Below, piece after piece: positions 4,401 to 61,424 of a DNA stretch of 64,000 nt. The notes beneath the pieces are model-generated. The model was not told where the DNA came from and ran no database searches. It worked only from the letters and a program-made list of their open reading frames with translations. Position 1 is the first letter of the stretch. Each line of letters begins with the position of its first letter. The translations under genes and the position numbers were made by a program. This DNA comes from Tribonema minus (Eukaryota; Sar; Xanthophyceae; Tribonematales; Tribonemataceae): NCBI GenBank assembly GCA_017506865.1, contig JAFCMP010000037.1, positions 186,001-250,000 on the forward strand, given 5' to 3'.

Positions 4401-7400
4401 ATGCTACCCTGACAACATATATGCTGTCATGGTACTTCGCATTCTCACCCACTCTGTCTGGCATTTTGCTTAGTTCAGGTGTAATTCATTAGCGCCATGC
4501 AGAGCGCGACAACAGTCGCATCTCTGCCGCCACCCTGTCCCTCACTGGCCGACAGCGTCAATCAATGCCATGCATCTGAGCGCAAGAGATGGTATTATTT
4601 GTCTACAGCACTATTGAACTGCACAGTAAGTATACCCAATTGGCCAAGAGTACTTGGCATTGAGTGCCGCCATGCTGATTCATATATGACTCAAGCCATC
4701 AGCAGCTACTCTGAACCACACCATGCATAGAACCATATTCGGCCGAGACGGCAGCAAACCACACACAATGGCGACTATCACTGCATAAAGTGACGCCACG
4801 CGAAGGCAACAGATACTCTTCAACAGGCTCAAGGTCAGCGTAAGAGAGAGCATCCAGCCCAGCCACCACCTGCGCCGTAACAGTAGACGTTCAGCCCAGC
4901 CACCACCTGCGCCGCCTCACCATGCCCTGCCTACCTTGACAGTTAAAGATCACACCTGCGCGAACTGCAAACACCAGGAAGGTGGCAATCGCCAGACACT
5001 GATAGTATTTCACTTCTTCTTTGGAGCAAGCATCACATGTATTGAACTACTTCTTTAAAGTAAGCGTCATTCTCTCTGTCACCTGCGGCGCCGCGCGCGC
5101 GGCCCTCACGGACAGCGGCGTCTCCAGCTCGTGCTCCATGACCACCCTGCCCGCCATGGACCAGCCCGTTGCGGACTTTACCTCGCCGACGTCGGCCCTG
5201 GAGTACACCTGCGGCATGACAATGGCATCAAGCATGATTGTTGGCAAATAGGCAATGTCACTTGGTGTGTGCTTGAGCGGCGTGCGCTCTCACGGCAAGA
5301 CATAGACAGCTTGATGATTGCCTGGCGAAGTTTTCGAAAAGACGGCCCTGGAGTACACCTGCCCACCGCATAGCAGTGGCATCGAGCGCGGGTGGCAGGG
5401 CGGCAGAGAGTCATGTGGGGTGCTTGAGCATCGTGTCATTTTGCGACAAGGCACATGAGGCAGCGTTGGTATTTCTGTCTCAAAGTTCTCAAAGACACGG
5501 CCCTGGAGTACACCTGCCACAACAACAATGGCATCAAGCACGGTTGGCTGATGGGCAGTGACATGGCGCGTGCTTGAGCGTCGTGAAGTGTTGTGACGAG
5601 ATGTAGGAAGGGTTGATGCATTCATTGTCAACAAAAGCACTCGGACACTGTGATGAAGATCATGCAAAAAAAACACCAGGCCGAATTGGGACAGGGCATC
5701 AGGAACGCCCCAAATGAGCACACCATGACCATCCATGACCGTGATTTGTGTTTGTCTTCAAATGTAACAGTTTCGGCACAAACAGCAACATCAAGGTGAA
5801 ATTGATGTGAGAAACGAGAAAACTGGTTGTGAACGGGGGGAAGGCCGTGTGTGGCTGCAAAGAGACTGTGCATCAGTATCAGGACACTTGTGAGCATGGC
5901 ACTCGCCATCTGCTTGCCTGCTATGGCGTTGCGGTTCATTTACTTGACCGTGCGAGCACACAATAGGACAAGGCAACACTAAGACACGGAAAAGTACCAA
6001 CACAAAAATCTTGGCGATCTTAATTTATCCGCGTTTTAAAACATTGAATACAGTCTGATAGTTTGTTCGATTGTAATTCAATTTTTTAAAAATGATATGC
6101 TGTCGCCCCGAATAATTTTTAAACATCAGTTGACTTTTATGAATTTTTGAATTGACAATTAATACATAATTGATAATCATTAGTACAAAAAACATAAAAT
6201 CTTATTTCTCCATGTGCCACCAAGGCCTAATCTCAAAGTAAAAGGATGCCCAAAAACGCACCCAGGCCTAATTAGGATTGGTGCCCGGAACGCTCCAAAT
6301 ATTGGTCCGGTCATCCCAGCTAGGCACATGACGGTATGCATTGTGAGTTGCATGACACTTTCGGAGACGCTTTAATGCGGTATCGCCCACTTGCATAGGA
6401 TCAGAGCGGTGGTCACCGATGCGCGAGATGTGCCCTAGATGAGCATCACTGCCTAGGTGGCAGCGCTCTCACAATCTGGTGCCGTGCGTAAAGGCGCGCT
6501 GAGAGATTCCACCAGGACCTTACGCCGCTTGCCTCTGAGGCACACAATGGGTGAGGCCGACGGACGACTTGAAGCACACGCGCTCATTGCCGTCTGCACG
6601 CTCCGGGCCGCTCTACTTCAAATTACAACGAGAGGTGAACCGCACACTTCGCCTTGACCGGATCATCAAGCGCCTGCGCAGCTCAGCGACGCACAAAATC
6701 ACATCAGCACGAGCGCATGACACAACTTCAACTTCAAATTCAATTGTTCACGCGCACGGCGCGTCACCTCACCATGTGCCCCTTGACGGCGCCCACGGGC
6801 TTGGCGTGCGGCCGCAGCGCCTCCGCCTTGGACAGCTGGCTCGGCGTGCAGTACTGGCTGTGCCGCTTGAGCGCTGCCAGCGTCGCGGGGATGGGCTCGC
6901 GCGCCACCTGTGGGGTAGGATGGTATCACATCATTAGTACTGGCTGTGCCGCCTGAGCGCTGCCAGCGTCGCGGGGATGGGCTCGCGCGCCACCTGCGGG
7001 GTAGAATGGTACCACATTCATCACGGCGCACACATCGAAGGTAACTACGTATGCCGTGGGGCGCTACGTACCGGACAGGAAGCTGGGCAGAAATGGAGTG
7101 TGTTGCTGTGTACGTCACCCAAAGCTTTTCCTTAGCGCTGTGATTGAGCGCTGCTGATGGGGATGGGCGGGGATCGCGTGTTGCAGGCAGCAAGTGGGAG
7201 TCTCGGGCGGGCTCGCAGAGGGCGCACCACTCAATATGTGCACATTATCAAAATGCTTTAGGGTTTGATTTGCAAAACGTGCTCAATGCAAACATTCGGG
7301 CACATGAAATGTTGGGGTGCTGATGTCATTTATGAACAAGAAAAATATCGTCGGCAATTGCTGCAAGTGGTAAAGAAATTGTAAGATGGCTATGGAGCGG

Positions 7401-9749: not shown

Positions 9750-9818
<69 letters not shown>

Positions 9819-12800
9819 CAGCGGCCAGCGGCGTGCGTTGATGCGACCACTGGCGACCCATGCGCCTAACCCTAGTTCTGATTCTAACTTTTACCCTTAT
9901 CCGAACCCCAAGATGCGGCGCAATTCACACAACCTCAGGTGCTACGAAGCGCATTCAAAGACCCTGTAGTGCGCAGCAGCGGCGGCACAGTGCCGACTTC
10001 TTGCACATGCGGGTGGCAGCAGCGGAGCTCGGCAGGCACGGCAAATTACAAACGCGCAGCGCACAACGCGCCGTGACTCATTCTAAGAAGCAAGCCTGTA
10101 AGGTCGCGGTGCGTTCTGCTTGCGGACCTCTGCTTTCTTTCAGTCACCAATGATGACCTAGGGCCTAGATTTTTTTTTTTGCATTTCTCATTGCCCTGGT
10201 GCGTATTTTTAAGGGACTCTTCCAAGCCTGGTGGTGCACTGTTGGTGTCAACCTTATTGACCTTATTCTCGCCTGGCTGTATTGGATGCTCCTACAGTCA
10301 GATACACAAAGCATACAACATAATTCAAAGTTTAGAAAATCACTAAGTGCCATGACTTTTGCCAATCATTCACAACCGTGTCTGTGTGAGCGTGTGCTGG
10401 TGGTGCAAGCAACTTCACCAGAAAGCTGATTGACAGCGGTTAGATAAGGCTTCGAAACAGAAGCCACACGTCGATTGCAGGTTTTCGTTGACGGTAATGG
10501 AGTGCTCATATAGGGTTGTTTCAGAGCCACATAGGGTTGTTTCAGAGCCCTGTCCTCTGTAGGCCTAGCTTTTCCTCACAACTGATTATAAATTGTCAGG
10601 TCCTTCCGCAACCAAATCAAGCACACCACGGTACCTTGACGACGCCGTCGGCGCCAATGGCGACCACAAAGGGCATGCGGCGCCCGCGCGGACGCGCCCG
10701 CTCCACCGACAGCGGCTCGTCAATGAGGTCGCGCAGGCAGTCCACGTGGACCCAGCTCTGCGCCGGCGGCGGCGGCAGCGGCGGCGGCGGCGCTGCAGAG
10801 CACGCGGGGAAGCAGGGCGGCGCGCGCGAACATGGGGACTCGTGAGTACGAGTCATGAGGATGGATGGGTTTTCCAGAGCCGACAGCGGGATGTCAATGA
10901 GGTCGCGCAGGCATTCCACGTGAAACGACGCCTGCGGCGGCGGCGACGGCGCTGCAGTGGCAAGATGCGCCACCACGGCAACTTGTGAGTGGTGGGTCGG
11001 TTGCACAGCGTCGGAGTGTTCACGAACAAAAGAAGCATGGAGGCGGGGGGGGGTGTGATGGTTGTATGGCTTGGCCGCGCGGTGCCGAGGCTGCACAGGA
11101 AGCGCGCTAGCAGGCTCAGCGGCGCTTTGGCGGGTGCGGCGCTGCTGCTGCCGCTGCGGCGCTGCTGCTGCCGCTGTGGCGCGAATGGCAGGCGGCAACA
11201 CGACTGCAGGGGCCACGCAACGCATTCATCGCAGTCACATACACTCAGGAGCATGTAGTCAGGTTTGAAAGAACTTCCCTCGACGTGCAGCTGCCAGCCG
11301 GGCACGGCAGCAGCGCTGCAACGACGGAGGCATTGATGAGGGAACAGCTGCACCGCTGCCAGTCACACCACATTACCATCTCCTCAAGCACTTGAACTTT
11401 CTGCCAGCCTTGTACTGATGGCGGGCATGTGGTCTGCGGCACTGTTCCGCTGTACATACCGGATTTGGAATAATTGCTCACGATGCAGCAGCGGCCGCCC
11501 GCGCTGCGAACTTCTGCGCACGCGGCACGACACACGGCCTTGACACACATCAACTGACGTGTTGGCGCCACTTGTGCCATCCCAGATACGAAACATCAAT
11601 CACTCGCACCAGCCATCTTGGGGTGTCACCTGTTGAGCCGTTCAGATCGCCATGACCGCATTCTGCAGCCTCCTTTCCACCGAAAAGCTTCAGCGATGCA
11701 CTCGTCCCGGCGCCGCCGCTTCCGCCGCCGCTGCTGCCGCCGCCACCGCCGTCCCCAAAATGCCGACTGGTGGTGGGGCCTTGGACACCATTCAAAGACG
11801 GCAACCGCTGTGGTCGCCCCTTTGCTGCCTGTTGCTTCCACGTTTGTCCCTTGTTTCGCCCCCGCCTCTTTCCCCGGTCATCGTCACCGCTTTCGCCGCT
11901 CATGTCCTCATCTTCATCCTCACTGCTGCTGCTGCTGCCGCCGCCGCTGCTGCTGCTGCCGTCAACCTCCGCCTCCGACGACGTCCGCTGCAAAGCCTCG
12001 CTCTCGCTGCCAGAGGTCTCTCGCGCCGCTGCTGCCGCCGCCGCCGCCGCCGTCGCCGCGGCGCCTCCGCCGCGTCTGGCGCGCAGGGCTCGTGCGCTGC
12101 CATCGCAGGCAACCTCAGCGCGTTTTCTGCGACCGGGTGAATGTACTGAAGGTCGCGTTGCCGCCAGCGCGTCCGGAGCCTCGGCGGCGCCGGCGACAGC
12201 GCCGCTGCTGCCGTTGTCGCTGCCGCCTCCGTCAGCTCGGCCCGCTTTGCCACTGCCAGCGGCGGCGGCGGCGGCAGCAGTGCCGAGCCCCTGCTCCTCG
12301 CCACTGCTGCCCTCGTCCTCAGACGAAGACGTGTCCGTGTCAAGCGCTGCCAGCTGAGCAATGATGCTGCCCCCTGTTCGGGGTGCGGCGCCAGCTGCGC
12401 CATCGCTGTTACTGTTGGATGAGGCTGCCGGCGCCGCTGCTGCAGCGGCCGCCGCGTGGTCACTGCGCTCTTCAAAGCGCAGCGCGCCGCCGCCACTGCT
12501 GCCGCCGTCGCCGATGGGCCCGCCACCATCGCTGCCATCGCTGCCACTCGCTGCAGCAGACGTGGCCGCGGCGGCGGCAGCAGCGGCAGTGGCAGCGCCG
12601 CCTTTGCCACGCTTGCTGGCACTGCCAGCACCACCGCTGGCAGCAGTGCCCGAGGCTGCTGCGCGCTTGCGACCGCGCGGCGACACCGCCGTCTCAGCCG
12701 CCTCTGGCGCCTTTCCCTTCGCCCGCCCCTTCCCTGTGCCCATCTTCGCCTTCGAGCCCGCTGCTCTGCGCTTCGCGGCAGGGCCGCTGCCTTTTTGCTT

Positions 12801-17162: not shown

Positions 17163-20100
17163 ATGACATCAGGACTGCTCTTGGCCTTCCTGGTGCTGCT
17201 CTCGTTGCACGTGGCATCATGTGAGAGCTAATTACACATCTGATTCCGCATAAGGTTAGCTTTGTTGGAGCAGATCTGTTGGCATTTTTCGCTGTAGGCA
17301 AATCATGCTCCCTAGCCAAATGAAGTCAGCATCAGCATTATCAAGCTGCATTTGTTAGCACTATGTACTCATTGACAACAAATCCGAAACTGAGCTCTGC
17401 TAGCCCAATGAAGTCAGCATCAGCATTATCAAGCTGCACCTGTTAGCACTATATACTAATTGACAACAAATCCGAAACTGAGCTCAGGGTTTCTATTGTG
17501 TCATTTCAGGTCGGGTGTTTGCAGCCGAGGACCCCATCCCAGGCCCGTGGCCCGACTCCTTCTTCGCCACGCTGGCACGCAATGGTACCAAAGCGGACGG
17601 GGCACCCACAGGCACGGACGTGCAGGCCAAGTACTACGACTACTCCAACCGCAACGCACCGTTGTATCGGTGAGCAGAAGCCAACAACAGCGTCTCGTGC
17701 ACGCGCACGTATTACATGTGTGTGCGCTTGGACGCTGTGATGTGGTGATGGTGGCATCCCAGGTGGATGCTGAGGCGCAGACCTCATGTGTTGCTACACG
17801 TGTCAAGCTGCAACACGAACTGCACCTGGCGTTGCTGCTCGTGACTCTGAGATTTGCTGCGCCTCAAAATGGTTGCACACTGAATCGGACACCTGAACAT
17901 CTGCTGATGTCAACATGTCCCGTACTCATCGTACGTCAACACTGCTCGCCCCCTGCTGCCCCCTGACGGAGACAACAGCAACACTAGCATAACACGACGC
18001 TGACGTGTGCTGTGCCTGCTGCGGTGACTTTACTTCCAGGCAAGACTGCTCCAAGAACGGCATCACCAGCACGTTCCTGCTGCTGGGAAAGGAGGGCTAC
18101 ATCTTCACAAAGGCCAGCGAAGCGTGCGTGCACGTCACGCTGCCGGTGGCCGTGGTGAAGCCCGAGTGGATGCAGGGTGGCGAGTACCAGGGTACTGAGG
18201 TACGCCGAGTGACCGCCGTTCATGAGTGATTTGTGCCGTAGACCTGACATTTACAAGAACATGATTGAATCAGATCAGGTCAGGAGAAGCGTCAGCCACC
18301 AACACCAAGAGCTCAACACTCTGAATTACTCACAGCCGCAGCATCAGACATCGCTCCTGTGCGCCCGCTGGAGAGTGCGCGCGTTGTAGGCCGCTTGAAG
18401 AATGAAGGCTAATGACGGTCATGTCTGCTCGCCACCTAGGTCAAGGCAGGGTGCTGTTTTCTCGCCTCGGATCCCGCAGCGAGCAGTCGTTGTGGAGTGA
18501 TTCTGTGTTGAAAATGTCTGCACCACAACGCGGCGGCAGGCGCGAAAACTACCCGGGCCAGCTGTGCTCGAAGGCGCGTTCTCTCTTGACGATGGGGGGG
18601 TAGCTGTACCAAGTCCTCTTCAAGTCCTCTTGTTTCGTGCACAGGTCTCCCTGACCGATCCTGCAGTGGTTCAACCACATACCCCCGATGTACATTGAAA
18701 CGGATGGAGCTTCCATCTTTCCTCAGACTATGGTTGATTTGCAAGCGCCGCATCTTCTCCTTGGCAACTCTTGCCTGCTTGATGCTGGAGACATATTACT
18801 TCTGCTAACCGCCGCATGCGCTGTCCCTGTTCCTGCCCGCTCTCTGGCGCAGGTGGTCAACAACGTGCCCAGCAACCTGGTACATCACAGGGTGCGCTTG
18901 TGCTCACATTGGTTGCGGTGTCTTTGGCACAGCTGGTCTCATACTCACCCAGCGACTGACTACATGCACAAGTAAGGTTTGCAGTTGTTGCCGTGTTCCG
19001 CGCCTCGTGCTGCATTGCTCAGCAGTGGCAGCGTATGTGCAGTGTACGGGCTGTAGGGGCTGGAGCCTCCACCTACAGGACACGTACACTCATAGGCGCA
19101 TGCATGACGGGCCAGGCGGGCTAGGACAGATCGACTGACTGTAATGTGCGCACAACGCAACAAGCGACCGTCACAAACGGCATGACTAGCATACGGGCCT
19201 ATGCGCAGCATAATTCACAAGATAGTGCGCTGACGACTAGGCTCATATGGCAGAGTCCATCATGCTGACCTTGACGTGTGCTGCTCCATGGAAATCACAG
19301 CGCAGCTGAACTATGCACACTCCCCTTTGCAGTGCAAAGACGCCGTCTGTGCCGTCCTGTCGCAGTGCACCCCGGCGTTGCGACAGGATCAGGTGCTCGT
19401 TTCATGCGCGCCATTGTACGTGGCGCACACCGTGACGCCGCAGCCGCTGCTCCTGCCGCCGTCGCTGCTGCCTCCGTGCCGGCCGCAGTGGATCAAGGCG
19501 GACCACCGCTACTACGAGTCCGTCACGGCGCCCAAACGGCCCACGCGCGTGTTCACGCCCTTTGACCAGCTCGGCACGGCGCATCAGGTGCGTTCGCGCG
19601 CGCTGCTGTGAACTTCATTGAGTTGCACGGGACCTGTTACCCAATAGTTTTGCCTGCGCAGTGCTGCTTGCTTGTGGCGCCGCTGCACGAAAGCCTTTCG
19701 GCCGGCCGACGTGGGGGGCGTACGCATTCATCGATTGTTGCAGCAGCGGCGACGCTGTGCTATCACCGTGCATGTGCGGGCCGCAACATCAGTCTGTGTC
19801 ACCATCTGGCTTTGCGCAAGTCCTCAGAATAATCGCGGTCGGGGTCCACGAGAATGAATCTGCCGATGTTGCAGTGACAGCGCATATGCGTTAGGGCTGT
19901 GTGTAGGCAGCAGCCTTCTACTGCAGCCTCTGACTTAGATTTGGGTCAGGTTATCCCCCAACTTTAACCCCGTTGATTGTGCGTCGCGCGCTGCTCGCTG
20001 CTTGACACGGCAGGGTCATCGCTTGTGCACTGTTGCCGAGCACGCCTGTTGCCCGGCGACGAGGACATCAGAATCTGTTGTATGGTTGAATGCGGTTCGG

Positions 20101-22076: not shown

Positions 22077-25000
22077 ATGATCCTTCCCATGGCATGTGTT
22101 TTGGCAGCCATGCTGGCGCTGGCCAGCGGCGCGCAGACAACGGGACCTTTTTCATTTGGTGAGTGAGTGGCTAGAGGAGAATTCTGCGGAGGCATTTTTT
22201 GCTGCAGATCCGATTCGCTGAACTACTGCGGCAGCCGTTGCGGCAGGAGGGCGTGCAAGAGCACCCAAAGATTCGTACATCATATAATGCTCGATGCATG
22301 CAATCTCGTTGCCGCACCCGAATGCAGGAACATATGAGGAGGAACTAGATCGTAGCGTGCTCGCGACGTGCAACTTGTCTCGCAGGACATACAGACATAC
22401 TTCAAGTTGTGAATACAAGGAGAATGATCTTCGACGTCGGGCGTCATACCATGAAACCTTAATCCAAGTAGGGCAAGCTATGGTGAATGCGGTGATGGTG
22501 TTGGGCATGTAGGTCAGTAGGTCATAACCTACGGTCAATCAAGCAGGAATTGTTGCAAGTCATGCATCGCCAGCGCCAAATCAGCAGGCATGCAACACCC
22601 AGCTCCTAGGACATTGCAGTCAGGCACAGGCAGTGCAGCCATTGTGGTTTGTTGTGAAGGATATGGCAATTTGAGAGCGTATCATAATGGTACAGCATGC
22701 TGCAGTGAGCAGGCCACGCAGGCGGCGGCACGATGCAAAGCGTCACAAGGCACACATTTATGTATGCAAAATGGTGGGGCAGAGACTGAGCCATCTGTTG
22801 CACTGCATTGGTGTTGTCCAGCGTTGTCACATGCCCTGCGTAACCTTCTTGTCCACCAGGCTGAGCCAGGAAGGCCGCCGCGATACACATTTACCATGGG
22901 TAAATGTAAGCATATGCATACTATGTAGTAGCTGTTCCAAATATGTGAGCTCGGACGGTTCAGGGGGACCTGGTTCAAGGACCATGTGACTCTGAACGCT
23001 GAAGCCTGTTGGCATAACAGCACTCGATGTGCGCTGTCGGTAGGATTTGTATGGACCTATGCATTCGCTACAGATGAAAACTGCAGGACAAACGAAAGGA
23101 GCATGAATGCTCGCATTCTTGTGCTTAGCTTGCTGACACTCGTCATAGGTCTCCTGTGGCCAAGCTCCATGACACACGTGGCAAGACTTGACTTCGTAAA
23201 AAATACACATGGTCATAGTCATGTGTCATGTCATATCACTCCTTTGCCAACCTTAGAACATGAGGACTCTCGAGCAAATCTGCATGTATGTAGTGGCAGC
23301 CCATCCGGTGATCGTCCTGTAGCTGATTGCCCGTGTAGCAACTGCACATGCGCAATTTGAGGGTCCGCACGTGATGAATCACTGTGCACCAGGACTGAAT
23401 GCGTCTTCGAGTGAGATTTGCGCGTTGGTCCAAAAAGTATTGTTTACTCTATGAGCAGCCACTCTGGCACCATCTGCAACAAGTTGCTGCTCAAGTTGCT
23501 GTGGGTTCTCTCGCGCACGAGCATCAGACTGCCTAGCATGACGCGCAGCGAGGCGGTGCTCACGTTGCTCTGGTGTTTCGCGCACAGACCGCCTAGCACG
23601 GTCAGCAGCAGACTGTTGCTCACGTTGCGCTGTTTTCTCTCGCGTAGGCCACCCAGCACGGTCAACAGCAAGCCCGTTGCTCACGCTGCTCTATCGTGGT
23701 GGACACGACTAGCCACTCTTTTTGCACCTCTGCGCTTGCGACCTTGCTGCTCTGATGCGACGGCCGATTACGTGCCACTGCTGCACGCTGCGGCTGCTGT
23801 TACTGCTGCTGCCACTGTCGCCGACACTGCGCCTCGCTCGCTCCTTCTTGCACCTGGTTCTGGTGGCACTTGGTTCTACGTGGTGTTCGTTCTTGGTTTC
23901 GGTTTCGAAGTTCAACTTTTGCGCACAGCACACCGACTTGAACTTTACACACCATCCCTAGTCCCCCGCGCACGAAGTGGAAGGCGTGCGCACGGCGCGC
24001 GCTCGCTTGCGCTCGCTCGCGACCGTTGACGCCCGCCGACAATTCTCAGCTGCTCAGGCTGGACGTGATCTGAATTTGCACAGCGTGAGGGCAGCCCATA
24101 TTATTGCTTGACACACACACTACTTGAAGATTCGGATAGCTTTTGTGTGAAGTAAAAATATCACAAGATCATGAAAATTTAATCTAGTCCTTCAAGTTGC
24201 AAACCACTCGTCCACAATGAATGGATACATCCGATGAGTCATACCTCACGGCATCGGATGATCGTGTTCGACTTGGCACTACTATTATAAGCACATGGTC
24301 CACAGTGACTGTCCGCTCATTGCAGAACGGAATACCTGTGTCAAACCTACATGGCATTGCTGTACTTCAATGGCATAAACATTCACCATCTGTCCAATTG
24401 CACCTGCCAGCCAGTGGCTTGAATGATTTCTCCACTGAAAGTACAGACAAGCCGGCCTTTCAAATGTTCTTCGACGTCAATACGAGGATTGCCTGGTGGA
24501 GGACCTAGAGGCTGCCTCGGCTGGTGCCGTGGGCAAGCCGACGCAGGCTGCACCTATTGGTGACTCGCGCGACACCAGCCGCCGCCGCCAACAGGCTAGC
24601 GCACGGGTCCTGGCGCAGCTGCGCAGCCAGCGTGCGTCCGGGGCAATGGCGTGGATGAGCGTGCCACCCACTGCCAATGACCGCCCGGGTGCGGCGCCCA
24701 TGTCCAGTATGGCAGCAGCCACGATGATTTTGATTGCGATCTTCATAGACGGGTGGGGCATACAGGGCGAGGTGTGCCCATGGCGGTGCAGTGATGTGAG
24801 CCCCACCTCCACGCATGCGATCAGCTGCCCCAGCCAGCACATACGGGGGCACAACGCGACACACACTGCCCAAAAGCGGTGCCTGCAGCGCATCTTGAGA
24901 CAGCACCATGTCTCTATTGTCCGCAATGAGGACGCTAGCGTCTTCAAGGTACCGGGGTATCGGGCGGACACAGTCATTGACCCAGGGTGTCTGCACTTTA

Positions 25001-30903: not shown

Positions 30904-30938
<35 letters not shown>

Positions 30939-33132
30939 GCTGCTGCTGCTGCCACCAACGTCATCACGGACTCCATGCGCTGTTGTTGCTCCGCCAGACG
31001 TTTGCCGCTGCCAAGGCCAATGCGTCCAAGGGCGTCCTTGTGGTCAAACAGGCGGTAAGTGCCCCCACCAGAAGTGTACGTTTATATAAATGTAATTCCA
31101 TCTATACAACTAAGTTATGGCAAAATCGCCGGTAGCAGTTGCACCTTATGAGGCAGCTACCATCCTTGGCACGCTGACTAGGGTTTTTCGAGCGCATCTT
31201 GCGGCTTGCAGTGCAAAAGTGTGGAGTGACACATCGTTAAGGGGCATGGACTCTGTCGAGTCTCTGACAACACCCCCCCCCCCTCTAAGTAGCGGCAGTG
31301 CTGTCAACAGTCACATCGAATGGGCCGCGCCCGGAGATGAGTCGTGAGTGACCCCCCCCCCCCCTCATCTGACTTCAAAGCCGGTGTGCACCCAATATCG
31401 CTGAACTCTTTGCATCTCAGAAGTGATTGTTCGTACTGCTGTGGACAGACGGCAGGTCATCAAAAGCAGCAGCGCTCTCAGGGCCTTGAAGGCAATGATC
31501 GTCCATAGAGCTGGGGTGTCCGTCCGCGTATAACCTACTTCTTAAGTATATGACCGTGTCCTTAGGGCTCGGGTTAGCCTAACCCTGCCCTAACCCAAGA
31601 ACTTGCATGTCACGCGCAGGAATAAATTATAGTCACACACAGGTCCTGAGTTTGTGTGCTCTCAAATTCATTCGGCATCCTGGCCCGATGAAGAAGCTGA
31701 AGGTCTGAATTGGCAAGATTTCAGGCTGCTGCCGAGGCAAGACTCTCACTCTCTAGTTGCCCTTGAACATGCACGTACAGCGGCTGGCATGCTTGGCTGC
31801 GCTCGTTGCATGAACATCACATTGTGACTCACTGGCGGCGGCACACGCAGCGTATGCACATGCCAAGGCGCGAAGAACACTGTGGAAGTCAGTGTGTATT
31901 TCATTGCAACCTTCCTGTGTATTTCACATACTGTTGGCGTTGCATTCCAGCAGGCTAGCGCAGCGCCTGAACTTATTATGCCAATGTCTTGTACCGTCCC
32001 GCCACGCCGTACATTAGTTTCACCCGGCAACACAATACCTACCGTATGCCGCTGCAGGACATGACCTCGCCGGACTCCACCTCGGCCACGTTCGGCACCC
32101 TGGCGTTCCCGTACCCCTCCGTCTCCGGCGGCCAGTACGCGACCGACGGCTACGAGAACTTTGTCAACGCGCTGCACGACGAGGTGGCGGCGTACCCCGG
32201 CCAGGTCCTGCTCGTGCACGGCGACTCGCACGTGAGTACCACTTCAACTTGAGGTTTCAGCGTACTTCAATGTGAGGTTTTACGAGCTGACTTCGGCGCA
32301 CCGCGCCAGTCACCTCGAGCGGCCACTACATGGCTGCTGGGTTCACGACGTGTGTGACATGCCGTTCGTGGCGGGGTGGTGGCATTGCCTGGTCAGGTTG
32401 CGCTCAAAAATGGTCTGTCACACAAAATCTCTCTGTATTCCGTTGTTCAAGTTGACAAGCACCATCCACCACGGCCGGTGCGCACGTAGCGGGTCGTGAG
32501 CGCATTCCATGATGAGGTAAGTGCGTTGAGGTGACAGCGCCCCGCGGCCAGGTTTCGTGACTTGCGCACGACCGCCGCGGAAGCAGTTTGCATCGAGTAG
32601 TACGGGTGGTGAGCTGCAGATCGCTGCCTGCTGACGTTCGCTGTGCGTGATGCGCATGTGCACAATACATCTGGCGCCAAGGCGCGTGGAATGTACTCTT
32701 CAAGTTCTTTGAACCATGCGTATGAAAGCACACCTGCTCGTAAGTCAACGCATCCCAGAGTGCGTGGCACGGCTAGCACCGCGAATGCATGCTTCAGACC
32801 TCTGCTGCGCGTTTTTGGGACAGCGGCAGCAGTCATCCTTGTCCTAATCACTACGGAGGGTGCACATGTGCCATCAAGCATCGATGCCCGAGTCGTCGTT
32901 GAACGTGGACATCTCTTTTCTCTTGCCCCTGCAGGAATTCGTGAACCAGTCCGGCGAGATGGGGCTGCCCAACTTCAAGCGCGTCATGAACCCCGGCGAG
33001 GCGCAGGTGAACTGGGTCAAGGTCACCGTCGACGCGAGCGCGGGCACCGCCGCCGACAACTACAGCGGCCTCTTCTCCGTCGCGCAGCAGGTCCCCAACC
33101 CCATGCTGCACGCCGAGTCGTGCGAGAGCTGA
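22077..33132 (+). CDS. Secreted metallophosphoesterase-like protein, copy B (nine exons)
   Basis: Exons 22077-22158 (signal peptide MILPMACVLAAMLALASGAQ), 26806-26914, 27577-27693, 28416-28509, 29378-29538, 29870-30070, 30998-31054, 32058-32231 and 32935-33132. The product matches a mainly bacterial secreted calcineurin-like phosphoesterase family. Blocks in order: FGDLPYY, FTGDTKSGKTSC, LLYALGDNEWTDCHKNTGA, DPLVRLEYLR, VPGSNNNV, QTFAAAKANASKGVLVVKQA, GYENF, QVLLVHGDSH, and NFKRVMNPGEAQVNWVKVT. The GD, GDNEW, GSNNN and HGDSH blocks sit where this superfamily places metal and phosphate ligands; catalysis is inferred. Exon lengths equal those of copy C for exons 2, 3, 4, 7 and 8. Exon 5 is one base out of frame: LRTHFF and GHTIGGG lie in different frames, and one more C in the run at 29398-29402 would join them. 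It is therefore a recent frameshift or a sequencing error. Intron 1 is 4.6 kb and carries transposon remains. Confidence 0.85.
23385..23720 (-). pseudogene. STPR-like 23-residue repeat fragment
   Basis: The minus strand encodes diverged units such as RETPEQREHRLAARHARQSD and RENPQQLEQQLVADGARVA, spaced ~23 residues apart. A further broken unit (TTIEQREQR) follows in another frame. This is the score-and-three peptide repeat (STPR, as in FMBP-1), often found in ORFs near helicase-type mobile elements. No helicase or Rep motif is visible here, so only a repeat-region relic in intron 1 of copy B is supported. Confidence 0.55.
24439..25531 (+). mobile_element. 5'-truncated LINE-like (non-LTR) retrotransposon, 3' end
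   Basis: An open frame from about 24439 to 25449 encodes only the C-terminal part of a non-LTR polyprotein. It has a short helical lead-in (LRRQYEDCLVEDLEAAS), a Cys/His knuckle (CPWRCSDV then THAISC), a nuclease-like block (GYRADTVIDPG, IVLDTSVRAP) and a tail block (WAFVPFVQESYGRLGKQ). This order resembles restriction-like-endonuclease ends of LINE proteins that I recall from algae and oomycetes. The reverse transcriptase domain is absent, so the copy is 5' truncated. The last 97 bp (25435-25531) recur exactly at 55728-55824, marking the element's 3' tail. It sits in intron 1 of copy B in the sense direction. Confidence 0.65.
29342..29365 (+). repeat. Poly-C run of 24 upstream of copy B exon 5
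   Basis: The C24 homopolymer ends 12 bases before the acceptor (cccatcag) of exon 5, in polypyrimidine-tract position. Confidence 0.9.
29711..29885 (+). repeat. 114-bp tandem duplication across the acceptor of copy B exon 6
   Basis: The true junction is tccatacag/GCCGCCCCCCTC with the exon starting at 29870. A diverged copy with cgactattcag/GCCGCCCCCTC starts its exon-like part at 29756. The upstream intron sequences (gctggcagttcttccctc versus gctgtcggatcttctata) are also alignable. Confidence 0.8.
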
Positions 33133-37100: not shown

Positions 37101-40100
37101 AGGCACATCATTGGGTTCGAGACAGACCCCGCATGACCCCATGGCGCGGATGAAGACAGCGCCCTCTGCGGAAACAAGACGCGCATGGCAACTGTTCCAT
37201 TGGCCCTCAAGCTGAAAGCAAAACCTTTGTTGAACCTCTGGGCGTACGTCCCGCGCACCGTCGCGCTGCGGCGCCGTCTCGCGCTGAGCCTCTCCGCTCC
37301 CCCCCCCTGTCCCCCCCTGTCCCCCCCCGCGCAGCGCTCCGCTTGTGTACTCCGTCGGCGACAACGAGTGGACGGACTGCCACAGGAACACAGGCGCGCC
37401 GACAAACCCCCTGGACCGCCTCGCATACGTACGTACCCCCCCGTGTGGTGGGCGGCAGCACGGCTCAGCATGTCCGGCGCATCCGCCTGTTGAGTGGCAC
37501 ATCACCGCTGCCTGTCATGCGTTGTGTCCTTGCTCTGCGGAGCGTGAACCTGTGAAAGGTGTCGCGCCTTAATAGCAATCGGACAACGCTTCCAGGCGAT
37601 CACGCCCCACAAGCAATGACCCTTTTCTCTCCCCCCATACGAGCGAGCAACGCTTCGCTGGGCATCGTTCCATGATGTCAGGATGTCTCGAGGGGGGCGG
37701 GGATGATCGGTGAAGCAAGTCAAACCCCTCAGCGCTGCCAGTCAAACCATGCTATAAATGTCTTCTATAGTGGACAGCATACAGCCATTGCTGCACATTT
37801 ACTGAGCGTTGCTGCCTTACCCGCCTCCGCGTCGCACCCCCCGCAGCTCCGGTCCAAGTTCTTCAAAGGCAAGACCCTCGGCGGCGCGTGCTCCATCGAA
37901 ACCCCCAGCCAGATTGTCAAGGGGTACCCCGAGAATGTACGCTTCAACTACGGCAAGATCACCGTCGCCGCCGTCCACGTCGTGGGGTCCAACAACAATG
38001 TGGTGAGTCACTTTCGAACTTGTGCGCGTTGAAGGAAAGAGAGGCTATGGCGGGCTCCAGGGGCCACTGCTAGCTGTGGCAGCTGTGCGTCGGAAGTGAT
38101 GCCGTGATAGGTCGAGTAGAGTACAGTGACCCTGACTAGGTTTGGGTTAGGGTTAGCCTAACCCTAACCCTAACCCTAAGGTTAGCCTAACCCTAACCCT
38201 AACCCTAAGCAGCTGCATAGGACGTGAGCCGTAGGAACGCAGCGGACACCCGGCGTTCCTTGGGCCTCCATGAAAGTGTATGAGTGCGGTGACGTCGTGT
38301 CCTCGGAGGTGTACACTTGGGCATATGGTCAGGTGGACGCTGCAGATGGCATTGGGCAACGACGCCTGCACCATCACACAACGGCACCCCCCCGCAAGAT
38401 GTTAGGGCGAGAGCACAGCTGTGCACGCGCTGCCAGCTGCGGCTGCGTGTGCTCTCAGTCGACGAAAATGCTCTGTCTGGGCTTCTAGAACGAAAGCGGG
38501 CGCACTACAAATCTCATCCCCTTTTTCATGCCATTGACCTCCAAGACACAACCCAGAAGCATTTACATTCTCACCCCCGGCAAGCCCCAGCGCTCGACGG
38601 TCTGTGCTGCAATAGACACGTTGCCAAGGCCTCACGCAGGCGCGTGGGCACCCCTGCTATGTCAGGCATGTACGCACCCGTGGTTTTGCTCAGCAATTGC
38701 ATCTTCCGCTGCTGCCGCTCGCTTCCGGCGCTGAAAACCTAGGCGCTTCAATACAGCACCAGTTATAGTCACTAGTACGTTGAAATACAGCATAAAACAC
38801 ACTTGAGATTGCACTTCCCTGTTTTGATGTTTTACTTATCAAAATATTAATTATTATGACTTATGCGCATGCGAAACGACAACGCAGGCCGCCCCCCTCA
38901 CCGCCGAAGGCGCCGCCGACGAGAGCTGCGCGGACTGGTTCTCGACGGATGCTCAGGCGACCGGCAAGCCCGCCTCCACCAGCGCCGCATACAACTGCCA
39001 GAAGAACTCTTTCCGCTCGTGCCAGGAGTGCATCGACGCGACCAACGAGTTCATCGCCCGCGACGCCGCCGGCATCGCCTTCATGAAGACGGTGAGCGGG
39101 GGGGGGGGGGTTGAATGAATGAATCATGTAGGCATGTTCACGAATGTGAATTGCGAGTGAAACGCTGAGCATGATCGCATCGACGCGACCAACGAGTTCA
39201 ACGAGCGCGACGCCGCCGGCATCGCCTTCATGAAGACGGTTAGCGCAGGGAAGGGGGGCGGGCTTGAATGAATAAATTGTGCAGGTGTGTTCATGAGTAT
39301 AAATCACGCATGAACGGCTGAGCGTGACTGCATCGACGCGATCAACAAGTTCATCGCGCGCGACGCCGCCGGCATCGCCTTCCTCAAAACGGCGAGCGGG
39401 GGGTGCGGGGCCGTGCATGAATGCCATCAGTGAGTCGTGTAGGCATGTTAATGAACGTGAAACATGAGTGAACCGATGCACGCACCAGCATTGCCTTCGT
39501 CAGGAGGTGAGTGAGAGGGTGGGGAGGGGGGGGTGGGGGGGTGAACGCATTGCCTGTGATTTGATGAACACATACATTAGCCGAACACAGTTTGTCGTCG
39601 CCAAGTATTAGTGCACATCTGATTGCAATGCGTTGACCTGCATGCTGGGAGCCGCCTGCCCATGACAAGAGCGTCTGTGTAAGCGCCAGCACAGCTACGA
39701 CGTGCGCAAGGGGACGCAGCAGGCCGTGGTGCTCGCACGCCACGCACGCACTCATGCACCACGTTCTGGTACACAACCAGACGACAGTGCGGTCTGACGC
39801 ACATTGCACCTGCGGCCGCGGCACCGCGCAGACGTTTGCCGCCGCCGAGATGGCTTGTTCAATACGTGAGCACCTACATGTGAAATACCCACATTGTACA
39901 CTGCTAGGAACCGCGTTTCTGACGTGCGCTGCTGCCCCGCCGCGCCGCGAGCCCGCAGACGTTCGCCTCCGCCAAGGCGCGCGGCTCCCGCGGCGTCGTC
40001 ATCGTCATCCAGGCGGTAAGCTCCCCCGTGTCTGAACGCGTGACGCTATTGCTTCCGCCGCATATGAGAGAGAGCTGCATGGGGCCTGGCCTCGGTAGCG

Positions 40101-41558: not shown

Positions 41559-42829
41559 GCGCTGCTGTTTGCCATGGAGCATACATACCCCCCCCCCTCC
41601 CCCGTAGTTCAAGTGGCGGTGACGCTGCGCGTGGCGCGCTCCGCCGCTGCTGCGGCAGGGCCGGAGCGCGCCACTGCTGCGGCAGGGCCGAATCGTCGCA
41701 TGCGTCGTTGCTCGCAGGCCTAGGCCATGGAGAGAGGCGGGGGAGCAAGCACTGCAGCAGTTGCCTCGTTGCGTCAGATATGAGAAGTATGTGTGTTACC
41801 GTAGTTTTATCCCCGGTGTACCGGATGGCAGTATGAGTCTTTCACTCCTCGTGGTATCGTCGTATTTTTGCAGAAGCGTAGTGCAGGCGCAGCGCTCGGC
41901 AGAGTAGAACAGCCGCTGCGCCAGCAGATTTTCACGTTGGCGATCGTTCATCAAAGCAGGGACAGGTTGGGGGGGGGGCGGTAGCTGAAGCAATCTGGGG
42001 ATAAGAGGTGATTTACCCACAGGCTGTTGAGCGCTGCCTGCGATGCGTGCGCGTACCCGTCGTTGCGTGGGTGGGGGGGAGGGGTGGCGGAAGGTGTGTC
42101 ACACATCTCCTAGCTAAATGTCAGACCCCAATTTTGGAACGTCGCTTTTGCTTTTCCATGCATCACTCACAGCTGTATCTGTTTCTGAATGCGCTTGCTT
42201 GATTGATCTTTGCAGCATGTTGTTGTGATGCAATTTTGCTGCACCATGTCGTGGCTGAGGTGCAATGATGTCGTGTCCAAGCCACCATCAGCTGCAACGT
42301 ATCGATGCATGTCACGCAATGCCTTGGGGCAGCCCTTGTGTGTACAGCTACGGTACAGCAACCAATGTCCGACAGCCCCAGAGCGCGATGTGCGTGGCAG
42401 CGCACGTACGCAAGGAGTGCATGGGGAGCTCAGTACAGGCTTCAACACCAAAAAGCAGGCGTGATCTGAACACAATCAGGTTCTTACTACAGATTCTTGC
42501 AGTGGAATGCATCCTTTATTGACAACAGCGCTGTACAAATGCGTGCTGGCCCTGAACTGCCTGCGGGGAACTACAGAACTCGGCAAGGTTGTGACAACAA
42601 CATATATGTCGGCAACGAAAGGCCGCGTTCATGCAGAGGAGCACGGTTGCCCACGCACGCGGCGCTGTCAAACGCGCACTCCCTCTTTTCGCAGAGCAGC
42701 AGGACGGCACCATGACCAACACACGTGCAGCAACGAGAAACTAACGCATCCATGCAACACTGCCAATGCACACACACACTCATCATGTCTTATGCACAGG
42801 CGGCCGTGGCATTCACGCTGAGCTGCAGA
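41559..42829. other. Convergent intergenic region
   Basis: This lies between the stop codons of copy C (plus) and the calpain-like gene (minus). It contains a C-run at 41588 and G-rich patches. No gene, RNA or element is recognised. It presumably holds both 3' untranslated regions. Confidence 0.5.
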
Positions 42830-45800
42830 TCATTCGCCCAGGGCGATCGGCAGCAGCGAGCCGGGAGGATCGCGCTTACGCGCCGCCCCCCGCGGCGACG
42901 CCATCGCCGCCGCCCCGCCCCCATGCCGCAGCTCCCCAAAAGGTGACGGCGCCGCCGCCCCCGACCCCCGCCGGTCGCTGGCGCTCACCGGTTTTGCCGG
43001 CAACTTGAGAGCTGCCGATGGCGATGAGGGTTTGCCCGGTGCCGCCGCAGCTGCTGGGCCGTTGGCCGCGGCGGCAGCGGCGGCGGCGGCAGCACCGGCG
43101 GCGGCATCCATGGCGATGGCAGCGGGGACAGTGTCGCTGCTGCCGGCGCCGCCGTCGACGCCTTCATTGCCGCCGCCGCCACCGCCGTCGCTGGCAACGA
43201 CTCCGGCAGCATCGCCGCTGCCGGCGCCGCTGCCGCCGCCGCCGCCGGCACCGCCAGCGCTGCGGCGCTTGCCGCCGCGCCGGTGCTTGCTCTTGCGGTC
43301 GCCGGCGCCGCCGCCGCCCGCCGCGGCGCCCGCGGGCCGGTCGCCGCGGTCCGCGCGTTCGCGCCGCAGCGTGAAGTCCACGTCAGCCGTGACCGACAGG
43401 TGGAAGGGGCCCTTCTTGCCAGGCGCAAACGTTGCGGGCATGATCTGCGCGCGGCGCGGCGGTGTCGCGGGTCGGCGGCAGCGCGCGGGCGGGCGGCAGC
43501 GCGATGGGAACAAGTGGGGTCAGAGTAGTGCTTGAGCCCTGACCATGAGGTGATTCTATGCGATGCACGGGAGCGCGCGTATGGGGTTTCGCGGCGCATG
43601 CGTCTCTGCGCTGCAAGTTCACGGGCGCCGTCCCCGATGTCATCGCGGCACTTGCGCGCCGCGCCGCGGCGGTCGCGTTGACACACCGCAGCGCGCTAGC
43701 GCTGCTAAAAGGCCGCACTGACCTCCCATCGCACTCATAGATAATGCCTGACATGTGGCGGCAGCAGCGATCGTCGGTGCTCTGCGGTGCACACATGGCA
43801 GTGATGATTTGATGGCTGCGCTCTCAGTGATGCGGGCCGACAGCGCTCACCGTGAAGGCGTCGTCCGGCCCGGCGCTCTCCAGCACGAACCCCGCGGGTG
43901 TCGCGACGCAGTGCGTCGGCACGAACGGTGACTCGTCCCACGGCTTGCCTTCGTGCAGCACGGCGCCGGGCGCGCGCACGGGGCGCGTCCCGTGCAGCAC
44001 GTAGAAGCCCATCATGCAGCCGACGGAGTCCGCCTGGCACGCCGCGCGCCACTCCGCCTCGGGGCGGCTGAGGGCGATGCGCACGCGCGCCGCGCCTGGC
44101 GGGAGGGGGGGAGTGAGTGGGTGAGTGAGTGAGTGACTAAGTGAGTCAGCGCGCAGTTGCTGCAGAGTCGTACTCTGGCATGCGGCGCGCGACTCTGCCT
44201 CGGGGGCGGCTGAGGGCGATGCGCACGCGCGCCGCGCCTGGGGGGGGGGGGTGGGGGCGAGTGAGCGAGTGAGTGGGTGAGTGAGTAAGTGAGCTAGTGG
44301 AGACCCACACTCTGGCATGCTCCACTGCGCCTCCGGGCGGCTGAGGGCGACGCGCACGCGCATCGCGCCTGGGAAAGCATAAAACTGAGTGAGTGAGTGA
44401 GTGAGTGAGTGAGCAAGCAAGTAAACTCTAGCGTGCTGTAACGCGCCCTCTCCGTCGTGCAGCAACGGCCACGCTCGCAGCACGTCCCGACCACTTTGCA
44501 GGGCACGCGCCGCAAGCGCCTCGCACAGCCGCAGCGCTTTCTTGGCATCGTCAACACACGCCGTCCCGAAGTCAGTCTACAGTTACGTGCGGTGGGAACT
44601 CATCAGTGCTCAGCACCGCCGGACCCGACACCCACCCGCGTCGCGCAGCCGCAGCTGGAACGCCGGGTTGCGGCGCCACGTCTCGGCGTGCAGGTGCGCG
44701 CCGCCGGCGCTGCCCTCCGCCCACTCCGCCGCGAGCGCGCGCGACGTCGCCTCCGGCAGCTCGCGCGCGTCGAGCGGCAGGTCGCTGTGCACCTCGAGCG
44801 CGAACGCGCCGCGCGCGCCGCGCTCGCCGAGCGTCGGCACGACGAGGACGCCGTGCGGCGCCCAGTCGCGGCGCAGCGCGGGGAGCGCGGCCGCCGCGGC
44901 GTCGGGGGACGCGTAGGAGGACATCTGGCACCACTCCGCGGGCGCGATGCTGATCTGCGCGCCGGGGGGGAGGGGACGGGGGGGAGGGGGGTTTGTGGTG
45001 GGGTAGGCATGCGGTGTATGTCAGAAGAGTGCGGCTCTGCGGTATGCAACCTTGTCCTGTTGAACTTGAACGGTAGAACGTGGAACTGTTTTGAAATGGC
45101 CAGGAAAAACCTGCAGGCACCACTTGCGTGCAGGGCACAGGGGAGGCGATGATGCTGCTCTGCGCAAAGCTAGGGGTAGGCGGCTGTGACAAGAGGGTAC
45201 CATGAGAGCGCGCAGCATGACAGGCACACAATGCCTCCTGCGGCCACTTTGACGCCTCCTGCGGCCACTTTAACCTGCCGTCATCAAAAGTCTTGACGGA
45301 GACACAGCATGACGCGGACACTTCGCCACACGTCCCGTCACTGTGGCAAACCCCCGCCGCGCAGCAACAGCCACTGCGCGCGCAACCCCCACCTTGCGGT
45401 CCGGCAGTGCGTTGTCGCCGCCGCCGCCGCGCCGCCCCCCCTTGCCCCCCTCCCCCTCCCCCTCCCCCTCGCCGTCGCTGCCGCCGCCGCCGCCGCCGCC
45501 GCTGCGCCATCGCCCCGCGGCGCCGCTGTGCGGTGCGCGCCGCAGCGAGGACGCCTTGCGCGGCACGGGGCGCCCGAGCGCGTCGACGCGCGCGTCGCCG
45601 GGGCCGGGGCGGCGTGGCGGCGGCGCGTCCGCGCGCGGCGCCGCGCGGCAGATGACGACGCCGACGGCCGGCGGCCGCAGGCCCGCGCTCGAGCGGCGGC
45701 CGGCGGAGGCGGCGGCGGAGGAGGCCTGCGGCAGCGGGTGAGAGGCGGCATGAAGTCATATGCTGCAACTAGTCATGCCTTGGGGTGATCAAGTAGGTCT

Positions 45801-48800: not shown

Positions 48801-48851
48801 ACGTGCCGTCGCCGCCGTCGCGCCGCCACGGCCCGCCGCCGACGGCGTCAA

Positions 48852-48883
<32 letters not shown>

Positions 48884-51667
48884 AGCTGCGCGCTACTGCC
48901 GCCGGCGCTGATCGCCGCGAGCACCTCCGGGTAGTCCTCCCAGCGCGGTGACGCGTCGGACCAGTCGCCGGTCCACGCGGCGGCGGCGCCCCACGGGCTG
49001 CGCACGCGCACGAGGCGGAAGCCGCTGACCTCCCGCAGGCCCACGAGCGAGCACGCCGCGTTGAGCGGCACGCCGGCGCTGTCGGTGGCGACGCCGCCGC
49101 CGCCGCCGCTGGTGCCGCCGCTGGTGCCGCCGCTGGTGCCGCCGCTGGTGCCGCCGGTGCCGCGCCCCGCCGTCTCGCTCGCGCACGCGAGGATGTACTG
49201 CCAGCGCAGGTAGCGGCGCAGGCGGTCCCAGAGGCGGCCGTCGCCGACCATGGCCTCGACGCGCGCCTCTTCGAGGCAGATGCGCGCCGTGGAGCCGCCT
49301 GCAGCGGCGGCGGAGATGATAGCACGTGCGCGTTGGCGCCAGTGTGGTGGTGGGTTTGCCGCGTCGAGAGGTTGCGCTGGGCGCATGGCAAGCATTGGGA
49401 GTGTGGTCACAAGTGCCGGCTCTGTGTTGTCGCGTAGTTGGTGCTGAGAGCGGAGTCAGCCGTGCGCTGTAGAAGTACGGTGAGCCATCTAGGCCTAAAG
49501 CTCGCTGGGCAAAAGAGCTTTTCTGGAATTGATGCCAAACAAGAGCTCTATTGCGCGCACTTGTCACGTCCACCAGTGTTGCCGCTGCCGCCTTCGCTGT
49601 ACTGATCCAAAACAAGCGCAATCCTCACATCTGCACTTCAAGCTCAACCGCTCATTTCAGTCATGTACTGCGCGCTGTACGCACCTGTGAGGTCCACCAG
49701 CGCATCGCCGCCGCTCCCGCCGCTGAGCGCCTCTCACTACAACTTTTGGATAAGATGTGCAAGCACGCGCAGCGCGCACACAGCACCTTGTTCCGACCAC
49801 TCTAACGCAACTGCTACGTGGAGTGCTGCCGCGCACCTGTGAGGTCCACCAGCGCCTCGCCGACGCTCCCTCACACCACAACTTCAACTTCAACTGCTAC
49901 ATGGAGCGCTGCTGCGCACCTGTGAGGTCCACCAGCGCCTCCCCTACGCTCCCGCCGCTGAGCGCCTCGTACGTCCCGTGCAGCTTCGCGTACGCCTTCT
50001 CCAGCAGCGGCACCCAGAACTCGTTGATGTCGACGCCGCGGCCATACAGGGGGACGTGGCCGCAGGCGGCGCCGGCGGGGGGCTCCGCGCCGGGGGGCAG
50101 GGGGGTGCACGGCAGGCGCGTGTCCGTCACGATCTCCTGCCACTCGCCGTTGATGTAGAAGCGGCACGTGTAGATGCCGTAGCTGCGCGGCAGGGGGGGG
50201 GGGGGGCGACAGGGGTTACGGCGGACCCTGATTCTAGGGGTACAGGCTGCGCGCATGACATGCATGCGCATGTTCGTTATGTGTGCGCTGGCGTCGCGCA
50301 CAAACAAGCCTTCATGTGGCTGCCATGAGGGCGGCACACTTTATTGAGCAGCCGCAGGGCTCATGCGTACGGCGTCTGCAAGTCACAAGCTGCTTGGGAC
50401 CACTGACGCGCTTGTGCATGTGCCACACGTAGACTCATACCTCAGAGTAATCAAAAGCCGGGCCTAGCGGGCATCATCAGTGGTGCCATAAATCTGCACT
50501 TTGACCGTTGTACATGCCAGTCTCCCGGTGAGTATGGTCGCGCTTTCACACAGCACTTCCGCACAGCAGCTGTGGATCAAGCACCAGATGTAGTTGTGCT
50601 CAGCTGCTTACAGACATTGGCGTACTTTCACAGTCTACATCTGTTGTCGCTGCACCTGGCAAGTCTCTGCTCACAATACATGTTTCGGCCAGTGCGCTGC
50701 GGCCATGTGCAAACCGGATGCTCACAATTACGTACGACTTCGATCGCAGTGTAACACTGCCCGTGCACGATCCATGCCCTGCAGACGTACATTGTACTTT
50801 AACTGCACATCCTCTCGGCTGCTCTGCAAGGGTGCTGTGCTGCTGGTGTGCTCACGTGATATCACCTTTGCATACCAACCGACTGGGCCTTCCCGACACT
50901 CGCATGTGCCTTAACATACACCAGTTCATTGAACCATGTACAGCCTGTTGTGTAAGAAGTACACCTCTCTCAAGGCCTTGCAATCCGACAATGAATAGCT
51001 TATTATAAGTATCTACGGTAGCCGTCAATTCTCGAACGCATTCTATGAGCACTCTGGCAATTACCAGCCAGCAAGTAGCGATTTGGCGAGACTTTGTAGT
51101 GCTGTTGACAATGCTTAAGCAGGCGCGCTACAGCAGACAATGATTTGAAACCTGGACAGCAAAAGCAGGTATGGGCTTGGCAGTCATGGGCTTGGCAAGA
51201 GCTACACTGCTTTCACAATACAAGTGGTTAGATGGACACCTGCTCACACCATCGCCACAAATGCGTACTCACTTGTTGAAATCTCCTGGCTCCGATGTGA
51301 ACAAATTTTCGATCAGGTTGCTCGGGTGAGCCGCAACTGCTGCCATGGCTCCGAGCAGCCATGCATCGTCGAGCCTCCCCTTCACCACATTCCCCGCTCC
51401 AGCAGATCCATCGTTGAAATAGGTGGGGTCCCGTGCCAGCTCATGCGGCCTCATCCACTTGATCTCTCCCACGCCCATGTCGTACTCTGGTACGATCGTG
51501 GAAGAACGATACAAGGCAGACTTGCTAGCAGGAAACGATGTGTCCTCGTATCGCTTGCCGCTGCCGCTTTCACGCAGATTCTCGATGACATCCGCTTCTT
51601 CGGATTCACCCACTTCTTCATCGTCCTCCTCGTCCATGCTGTCCTTCAGCGCCTCTAGCTTACCCAT
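42830..51667 (-). CDS. Calpain-like protein with all catalytic residues replaced (ten exons, 1211 aa)
   Basis: Exons on the minus strand: 51667-51273, 50182-49920, 49298-48690 (GC donor), 48112-47883, 47574-47272, 46804-46481, 45725-45393, 44954-44636, 44095-43851, 43444-42830. They join in phase to 1211 residues. An acidic N-terminus precedes a CysPc fold: IKWMRPHELARDPTYFNDG, LDDAWLLGAMAAVA (99-112), YGIYTCRFYINGEW, INEFWVPLLEKAYAKLHGTY, ALVDLTGG, GFRLVRVRSPWG and DGTFWMAWEDF. The catalytic Cys position is Ala102 (GDCW to DDAW), His is Ala300 (GHAY to NAAC), and Asn is Ser320 (RNPWG to RSPWG). Three calpain beta-sandwich (C2L) repeats follow, marked by FNNPQYRL, CQNPQFWLRI and WRRNPAFQLRL and ending in blocks such as MPATFAPGKKGPFHL. 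The C-terminus is ~190 residues of Gly/Ala/Ser low complexity. A regulatory or scaffold role is inferred. Confidence 0.93.
44035..44460 (-). repeat. Tandem copies across the acceptor of calpain exon 9, with GTGA microsatellite
   Basis: ggctgagggcga occurs near 44066, 44207 and 44339 (spacing ~141 and ~132), with a fourth weak partial near 44430. Each unit holds the first part of exon 9 (ARVRIALSRPEAEW), its acceptor and a (GTGA)n-type intron stretch. The copy with acceptor at 44096 continues into the full exon. The others are decayed exon starts in the upstream intron. Confidence 0.88.
46900..46921. repeat. Poly-G run of 22 in a calpain intron
   Basis: In the gene sense this is C22, about 95 bases upstream of the exon 6 acceptor (46805), followed by more C-rich sequence. 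Confidence 0.85.
47597..47613. repeat. Poly-G run of 17 directly upstream of calpain exon 5
   Basis: In the gene sense this is C17, ending ~22 bases before the exon 5 acceptor (cttccccacag). Confidence 0.85.
49681..49985 (-). repeat. Three copies across the donor of calpain exon 2
   Basis: gcacctgtgaggtccaccag occurs at 49681, 49833 and 49916 (spacing 152 and 83). The copy at 49916 is the functional donor (CTCACAG/gtgcgc after ALVDL). The other two, further into the intron, repeat the last exon codons with the same donor. The duplicated blocks also carry caactgctac.tggagtgctg. Confidence 0.88.
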
Positions 51668-60859: not shown

Positions 60860-60970
60860 AAGTGTCTTGTGTTGACACAGCAGCCTGAGAGTGGGCTGTG
60901 AATAATGTGCACCCACACTTACCCGAAGGGGAATAAAAAAAGGCTTCTTTTTATGCAGGTTTTTAAAAAA

Positions 60971-61420: not shown

Positions 61421-61424
61421 AGCC

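Follow-up and report, generated by a model that had tools for sequence, protein, structure and literature searches.

Introduction

Internal gene duplications, as Gao and Lynch reportedly described them in 2009, may run across exon–intron boundaries, and some are said to supply extra splice sites. The arrays that we describe here are likewise direct repeats within genes, most of them probably tandem duplications and some covering exon–intron boundaries, but they consist of short, incomplete exon edges that decay inside existing introns, and we saw no new intron among the 38 studied. In the review PMC3443670, which cites Hellsten 2011, new introns can arise by tandem genomic duplication; in that mechanism an exonic AGGT is duplicated and an intron is made. 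The mutation type is shared, a tandem duplication carrying splice signals, but that process creates a new intron whereas here existing introns are lengthened. Tandem duplication across junctions is known in kind; the lengthening of existing introns by decaying copies of their own edges is the variant found here. A literature search of limited coverage returned no report of introns filled with decayed exon-edge copies at such density, which is weak evidence of novelty.

Short direct tandem duplications have also been produced experimentally: according to PMC5730883, staggered breaks or paired nicks followed by end joining leave them in mouse embryonic stem cells treated with Cas9 nickases, and the same text discusses such lesions as a source of genomic tandem duplications. 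These products, too, are short segments duplicated directly side by side and suggest a plausible molecular cause for ours, with the difference that they were shown in mouse cells with Cas9 nickases. Introners and transposon-derived introns likewise bring about genome-wide intron change within a lineage, but introner copies share sequence across genes, whereas the units here hold each junction's own exon sequence. Here, we follow up a prediction made for a 64-kb stretch of the Tribonema minus genome (hereafter, the window), according to which recurrent tandem duplication of exon–intron junctions has left decayed exon edges inside introns.

Materials and Methods

The genome containing the window comprises 158 Mb in 554 contigs. 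We sampled ten 20-kb blocks on ten contigs; the positions were not chosen for repeats, the contigs being those listed in the repeat search. Block S15 was excluded from the repeat counts and the counts of sequence windows. Three genes, encoding mitochondrial ATP synthase beta, cytosolic isoleucyl-tRNA synthetase (IleRS) and an aminopeptidase, were chosen for curation as recognisable and having solved homologues. Of the 47 introns found by spliced alignment, we retained 38 (median length 759 bp): two beside a zero-length exon were merged into one, and eight in IleRS, next to gaps in the reference or to tiny exons, were discarded. The three curated blocks hold 40 (S27), 10 (S17) and 5 (S09) of the 106 primary repeat pairs; as two of the three are repeat-dense, the edge rates do not represent a random sample of genes.

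A self-trained gene finder, not transcripts, supplied the gene models for the window. Counts on gene-finder edges take in the window plus eight blocks (of the other two, one lacks multi-exon genes and one is S15) and accept copies within 500 bp on the edge's own side. Because the gene finder itself calls copies as exons, counts by sequence class are biased, and our claims about junctions rest on the spliced alignments. Two sets of 27 edges are used below, one from the own-intron test and one for the tests of geometry and flanks; they have 26 edges in common.

Results

With Tandem Repeats Finder, self-BLAST and direct reading, we recovered local direct repeats where the original prediction had placed them. 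Among the predicted exon edges of the five window genes, 9 of 82 matched their own introns above the 99% threshold of a null formed by exon edges and non-adjacent introns, which 1% exceed by construction. At least eight junction arrays in four genes had been claimed; we find six convincing ones in three genes, XPC/Rad4, a phosphoesterase-C-like gene and a calpain (Table 1). The gene taken as "phosphoesterase B" (26806–33119) has no edge that passes the 99% null in the own-intron test, three edges (11888, 13083 and 45725, with scores of 32–40) are weak candidates in what looks like low-complexity sequence, and one duplicated block lies within a predicted intron. The XPC edge at 5208 reaches a score of just 32, owing to its very short exonic part; the longer array is clear in self-comparison. 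As described, neighbouring copies lie ~83–174 bp apart. On direct reading the splice dinucleotide is mostly intact, 10 of the 11 intronic copies retaining GT or AG and one having GC. Pfam confirms XPC (BHD_1-3) and the calpain (Peptidase_C2 and Calpain_III); its search of the phosphoesterase-like genes gave no match.

Table 1. Junction-spanning arrays and other local repeats in the window (positions within the 64-kb stretch).
Feature	Coordinates	Strand	Unit, spacing or identity	Copies and context
XPC/Rad4 acceptor edge, exon 5083–5208	5193..5585	-	spacing ~150 bp; exonic part only ~16 bp	two intronic copies near 5343–5358 and 5498–5513; AG kept in both
XPC/Rad4 acceptor edge 6907	6850..7017	-	86-bp unit, 95% identical	one tandem copy 6936–7017; AG kept
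XPC/Rad4 acceptor edge 10792	10706..10961	-	spacing 174 bp; copy 83% identical	copy 10880–10961; AG kept
Phosphoesterase-C-like donor edge 39091	39029..39510	+	copy spacing ~150 bp	three decaying copies after the edge; GT, GC, GT
Calpain acceptor edge 44095	44046..44408	-		copies 44177–44237 and ~44319–44368; AG kept in both
Calpain donor edge 49920	49672..49985	-		copies 49832–49870 and 49672–49733; GT kept in both
88-bp block, twice	17312..17485		88 bp	inside predicted intron 17221–17524, no junction touched; intron-internal event of the same kind
Local repeat	23488..23692			outside predicted genes
Local repeat	60969..61134			outside predicted genes

The window also holds a dispersed repeat of ~350 bp (5623–5983), lying beside an XPC acceptor array and having at least 39 further copies on other contigs at 73–82% identity; CCCTAA telomere-like repeats (38151–38209) within a predicted intron of the phosphoesterase-C-like gene; and an array of 12-, 24- and 36-bp repeats (TTCAGCCT-like) at 61418–61962, outside the confirmed genes.

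The pattern occurs on many contigs, which supports the predicted general process that lengthens introns. In the three curated genes, 27 of 76 exon edges match a copy within the adjoining intron by the null of edges against non-adjacent introns, and 20 of the 38 introns are affected; donor (13/38) and acceptor edges (14/38) are involved about equally, in keeping with the expectation that both would be. As a control, the same edges set against the intron across their exon gave 1/32 and 0/32 (Fisher p ~1e-7). The genes differ among themselves, with copies at 16 of 26 edges in IleRS (L027–L028), 8 of 18 in ATP synthase beta and 3 of 32 in the aminopeptidase (L009–L010). Gene-finder models from the window and eight blocks have an own-side copy within 500 bp at 56 of 239 edges and at 4 of 113 controls; when the three curated blocks are set aside and the window is retained, the counts are 24 of 137 and 4 of 74. 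By sequence class, the biased gene-finder counts of positions with a local copy are 102/309 for junctions, 292/1741 for introns, 61/757 for intergenic sequence (36 of the 61 from the single block S21) and 38/260 for exons. In the ATP synthase beta alignment, extra predicted peptides coincide with copies. The density looks high for a process known in kind, but the window, thought to be unusual in this respect, is not: 7 of its 58 edges have a copy, against 49 of 181 in the eight sampled blocks.

The copies are direct. No inverted copy of an exon edge was found above threshold (0/76 edges of the three curated genes), and inside introns 147 of 448 sequence windows had a direct and 9 an inverted copy. 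Spacing is 60–240 bp in 89 of the 106 primary pairs, the fullest bins being 80–100 and 140–180 bp. The nearest copies of 27 edges have a median spacing of 168 bp and an exonic part of 20–76 bp (median 44 bp, none of the 27 above 76 bp), and the duplicated unit would reach ~40–255 bp into the intron in 26 of the 27. A median of 0.49 of the spacing is aligned, and the remainder shows residual homology in 20 of 27: the stretch between edge and copy matches the predicted tandem flank in those 20 (p≤0.05) and the opposite flank in 5. An earlier, more strictly scored test detected residual homology in 15 of 35 gapped pairs. Judging by the tandem-flank match, most copies are probably worn direct tandem duplications, and copy-paste with a nonduplicated spacer is disfavoured for most cases. 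Taken with the 27 of 76 edges that have a copy, these counts describe direct within-gene repeats that include an exon–intron boundary.

The copies decay. True edge and copy differ by 7.4% at the first codon position, 6.9% at the second and 17.5% at the third, and by 15.7% in the aligned intron sequence (868 bases, each query including at most 40 intron bases); the pattern is close to the m, m, ~2m and 2m that would be expected under neutrality when a dead copy is compared with a constrained exon. Copies agree with one another against the true exon at 53 third-position sites and at 4 sites of positions 1 and 2. Differences from copy to copy are also highest at position 3 (14.1, 10.1 and 27.1%), perhaps because the true exon drifted from one duplication to the next and because third positions are rich in GC. 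The copies hold 5 in-frame stops in 689 codons, where 8.0 would be expected from random change, and 16 of their 17 indels are not multiples of three; with such stops and frameshifts they look dead, and coding selection on them is unsupported. They are partial exon ends, not the complete duplicated exons with an open frame that mutually exclusive exons would be. Among copies whose alignment includes the dinucleotide, GT or GC is present in 26 of the 27 at donors, and AG in 15 of the 16 at acceptors; these figures leave aside 5 donor and 4 acceptor copies, of 52, whose alignment stops short of it (extrapolated ones read AT, GC and TT), and local alignment favours copies with a matching dinucleotide. 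A divergence of ~7% leaves dinucleotides mostly intact, so selection is not required for their survival, which the youth of the copies predicts.

A route from tandem duplication to new introns had been raised as well, but we found no newborn intron among the 38: donor and acceptor regions of the same intron were homologous copies above the 99% null in 0/38. This null was a high one (87), which the exon shared by neighbouring introns probably explains, but the best own-intron score reached only 30.

Whether junctions are duplicated more often than other places, the check attached to the original prediction, has a different answer by windows and by events. A local copy is found for 28 of 76 sequence windows at junctions and 147 of 448 inside introns (Fisher p=0.51), and the profile of 30-bp tiles inside introns has no peak at junctions. 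By events, half of the pairs (27 of 54) touch an exon, where random sliding of the aligned copies would give 7.9, and among pairs of at least 88% identity the count is 10 of 16 against 1.7. Forward simulation, in which whole units decay and are scored by a comparable detector, gives a junction-spanning share of 27–33%; the excess of 27/54 over 27% has p ~3e-4 if pairs are independent, which pairs within one array are not. The conservation gap between exon and intron halves, strong when copies are found by their exon half (26.3 vs 21.0 matches of 30), is largely an effect of that search: among copies found by the intron half, 17 of 30 have an exon half and the contrast is 25.8 vs 23.4, so that the gap shrinks without being fully removed. 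In our reading, the process is general, and any excess at junctions is modest at most.

Two features exceed what general duplication with decay predicts, the shortness of the exonic part and the frequency of junction-spanning pairs; the coverage of units, the remaining gap between exon and intron halves, the high position 3 between copies and the strong differences between genes also count against it. In the simulation, the exonic part exceeds 76 bp in 28–34% of edges, against 0/27 observed, and copies of at least 88% identity fill a median of 0.99–1.00 of their unit, with 25–32% below 0.6 under heavy indels; of the observed pairs, 25 of 34 fill less than 0.6. The short exonic part may mean that long copies are removed as they are taken for exons, or that breaks are confined to exon edges. 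In one paralogue, the exonic part is ~85 bp by reading, and the 76-bp limit is thus not absolute.

Two light-harvesting paralogues (L035 and L036) align only in pieces of ~81–93% identity, which we take for exons, with nothing aligned between them, and intron sequence in this genome seems to turn over quickly. A three-copy acceptor array, with two extra copies, is present in L035 only; L036 lists no local repeat. Around a light-harvesting gene, contigs L033 and L034 share 3.4 kb at 99.9% identity, either a recent duplicate or a second haplotype, and the best match of one light-harvesting protein is to fucoxanthin-type proteins, a partial placement that points to an alga of the red-plastid lineage. 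Elsewhere in the sample, a 1.2-kb repeat lies inside an ATP synthase beta intron (L017:7949–9149) and has at least 31 near-full-length copies elsewhere, 87–92% identical. The block L015–L016 (G000:C223:1000001-1020000), excluded from the counts of repeats and sequence windows, is GC-rich and intron-poor, with long open reading frames, a histone-like fusion and tandem arrays of 257 and 312 bp; our impression, and only that, is of an inserted large-virus-like region.

Discussion

Our analyses reveal copies that are direct in orientation, adjacent to their own junction, mostly tandem in their units, marked by stops and frameshifts and, in one case, present in only one of two paralogues. We consider it probable that they come from short tandem duplication acting genome-wide, tolerated within introns and across single junctions. 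A mutational process would generate short direct tandem duplications throughout the genome; those wholly within an exon would usually be removed by selection, and those within an intron or across one junction would be tolerated, the latter because the exon-proximal copy remains available to splicing, so that the mRNA stays the same. Purifying selection would then hold the true exon edge while the extra edge and its splice site decay inside the intron, and with repeated rounds of duplication the intron would grow longer. That the exon-proximal site is the one used, we infer from its conservation. The most likely molecular cause seems to be staggered breaks or paired nicks that are filled in and end-joined, or else replication slippage.

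A duplication process aimed at the junctions themselves, tied to transcription or splicing (for example, through breaks near splice sites) and taking in ~45 bp of exon with the adjacent intron, would account for the excess of pairs that touch an exon, both overall (27/54, against 7.9 by sliding and 27–33% simulated) and at 88% identity or more (10/16 against 1.7), as well as for the narrow range of the exonic part (20–76 bp, median 44). It fits poorly, however, with the equal rates at junctions and intron interiors (28/76 and 147/448) and with a tile profile lacking a junction peak, and its supporting counts are inflated by the constrained exon half being the easiest to detect and by arrays that contribute several nonindependent pairs; on balance, we regard it as unlikely. 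The same doubt applies to its more specific form, in which splicing- or transcription-linked breaks ~20–80 bp inside exon edges focus the duplication and introns grow outward from their own junctions. Given that sequence windows at junctions and in introns have equal rates, general duplication, together with purifying selection that holds the true exon, accounts for most of the pattern.

Less probable still is that selection keeps the copies as spare or regulatory splice sites or as alternative exons. Mostly intact dinucleotides, the greatest difference at position 3 even between copies (14.1/10.1/27.1%) and stops slightly under the random expectation (5 vs 8.0) would all agree with it, but 16 of 17 indels shift the frame, the codon pattern can be explained at least partly by synonymous drift of the true exon (53 vs 4 sites) and the survival of dinucleotides fits ~7% divergence. 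The proposal that duplication supplies spare splice sites does not, as far as their maintenance goes, agree with copies that hold stops and frameshifts. We give next to no credence to an origin from mobile elements or introners that landed near junctions. A 1.2-kb repeat with at least 31 near-full-length copies elsewhere does lie in one ATP synthase beta intron, but the units contain their own gene's exon sequence, and the presence of one sequence at many unrelated sites, as introners would have it, was not seen: both spacers tested match only themselves in the genome, which rejects a mobile origin for these two, and the window's array near position 39 kb has no match in the genome beyond itself and one paralogous exon. 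Artefacts of assembly are about as implausible, the pattern being present on several contigs and the copies carrying private substitutions and indels, which misassembly of one sequence would not produce.

With general duplication and decay as the preferred explanation, the finding has a practical side and a biological one. As our own gene finder called dead copies as exons, the annotated proteins of such genomes may hold false peptide repeats. For intron evolution, a single genome displays the lengthening of introns at many stages of decay, and near-identical competing splice sites, mostly 90–300 bp apart, stand at many of its junctions, a natural experiment on the choice of the exon-proximal site.
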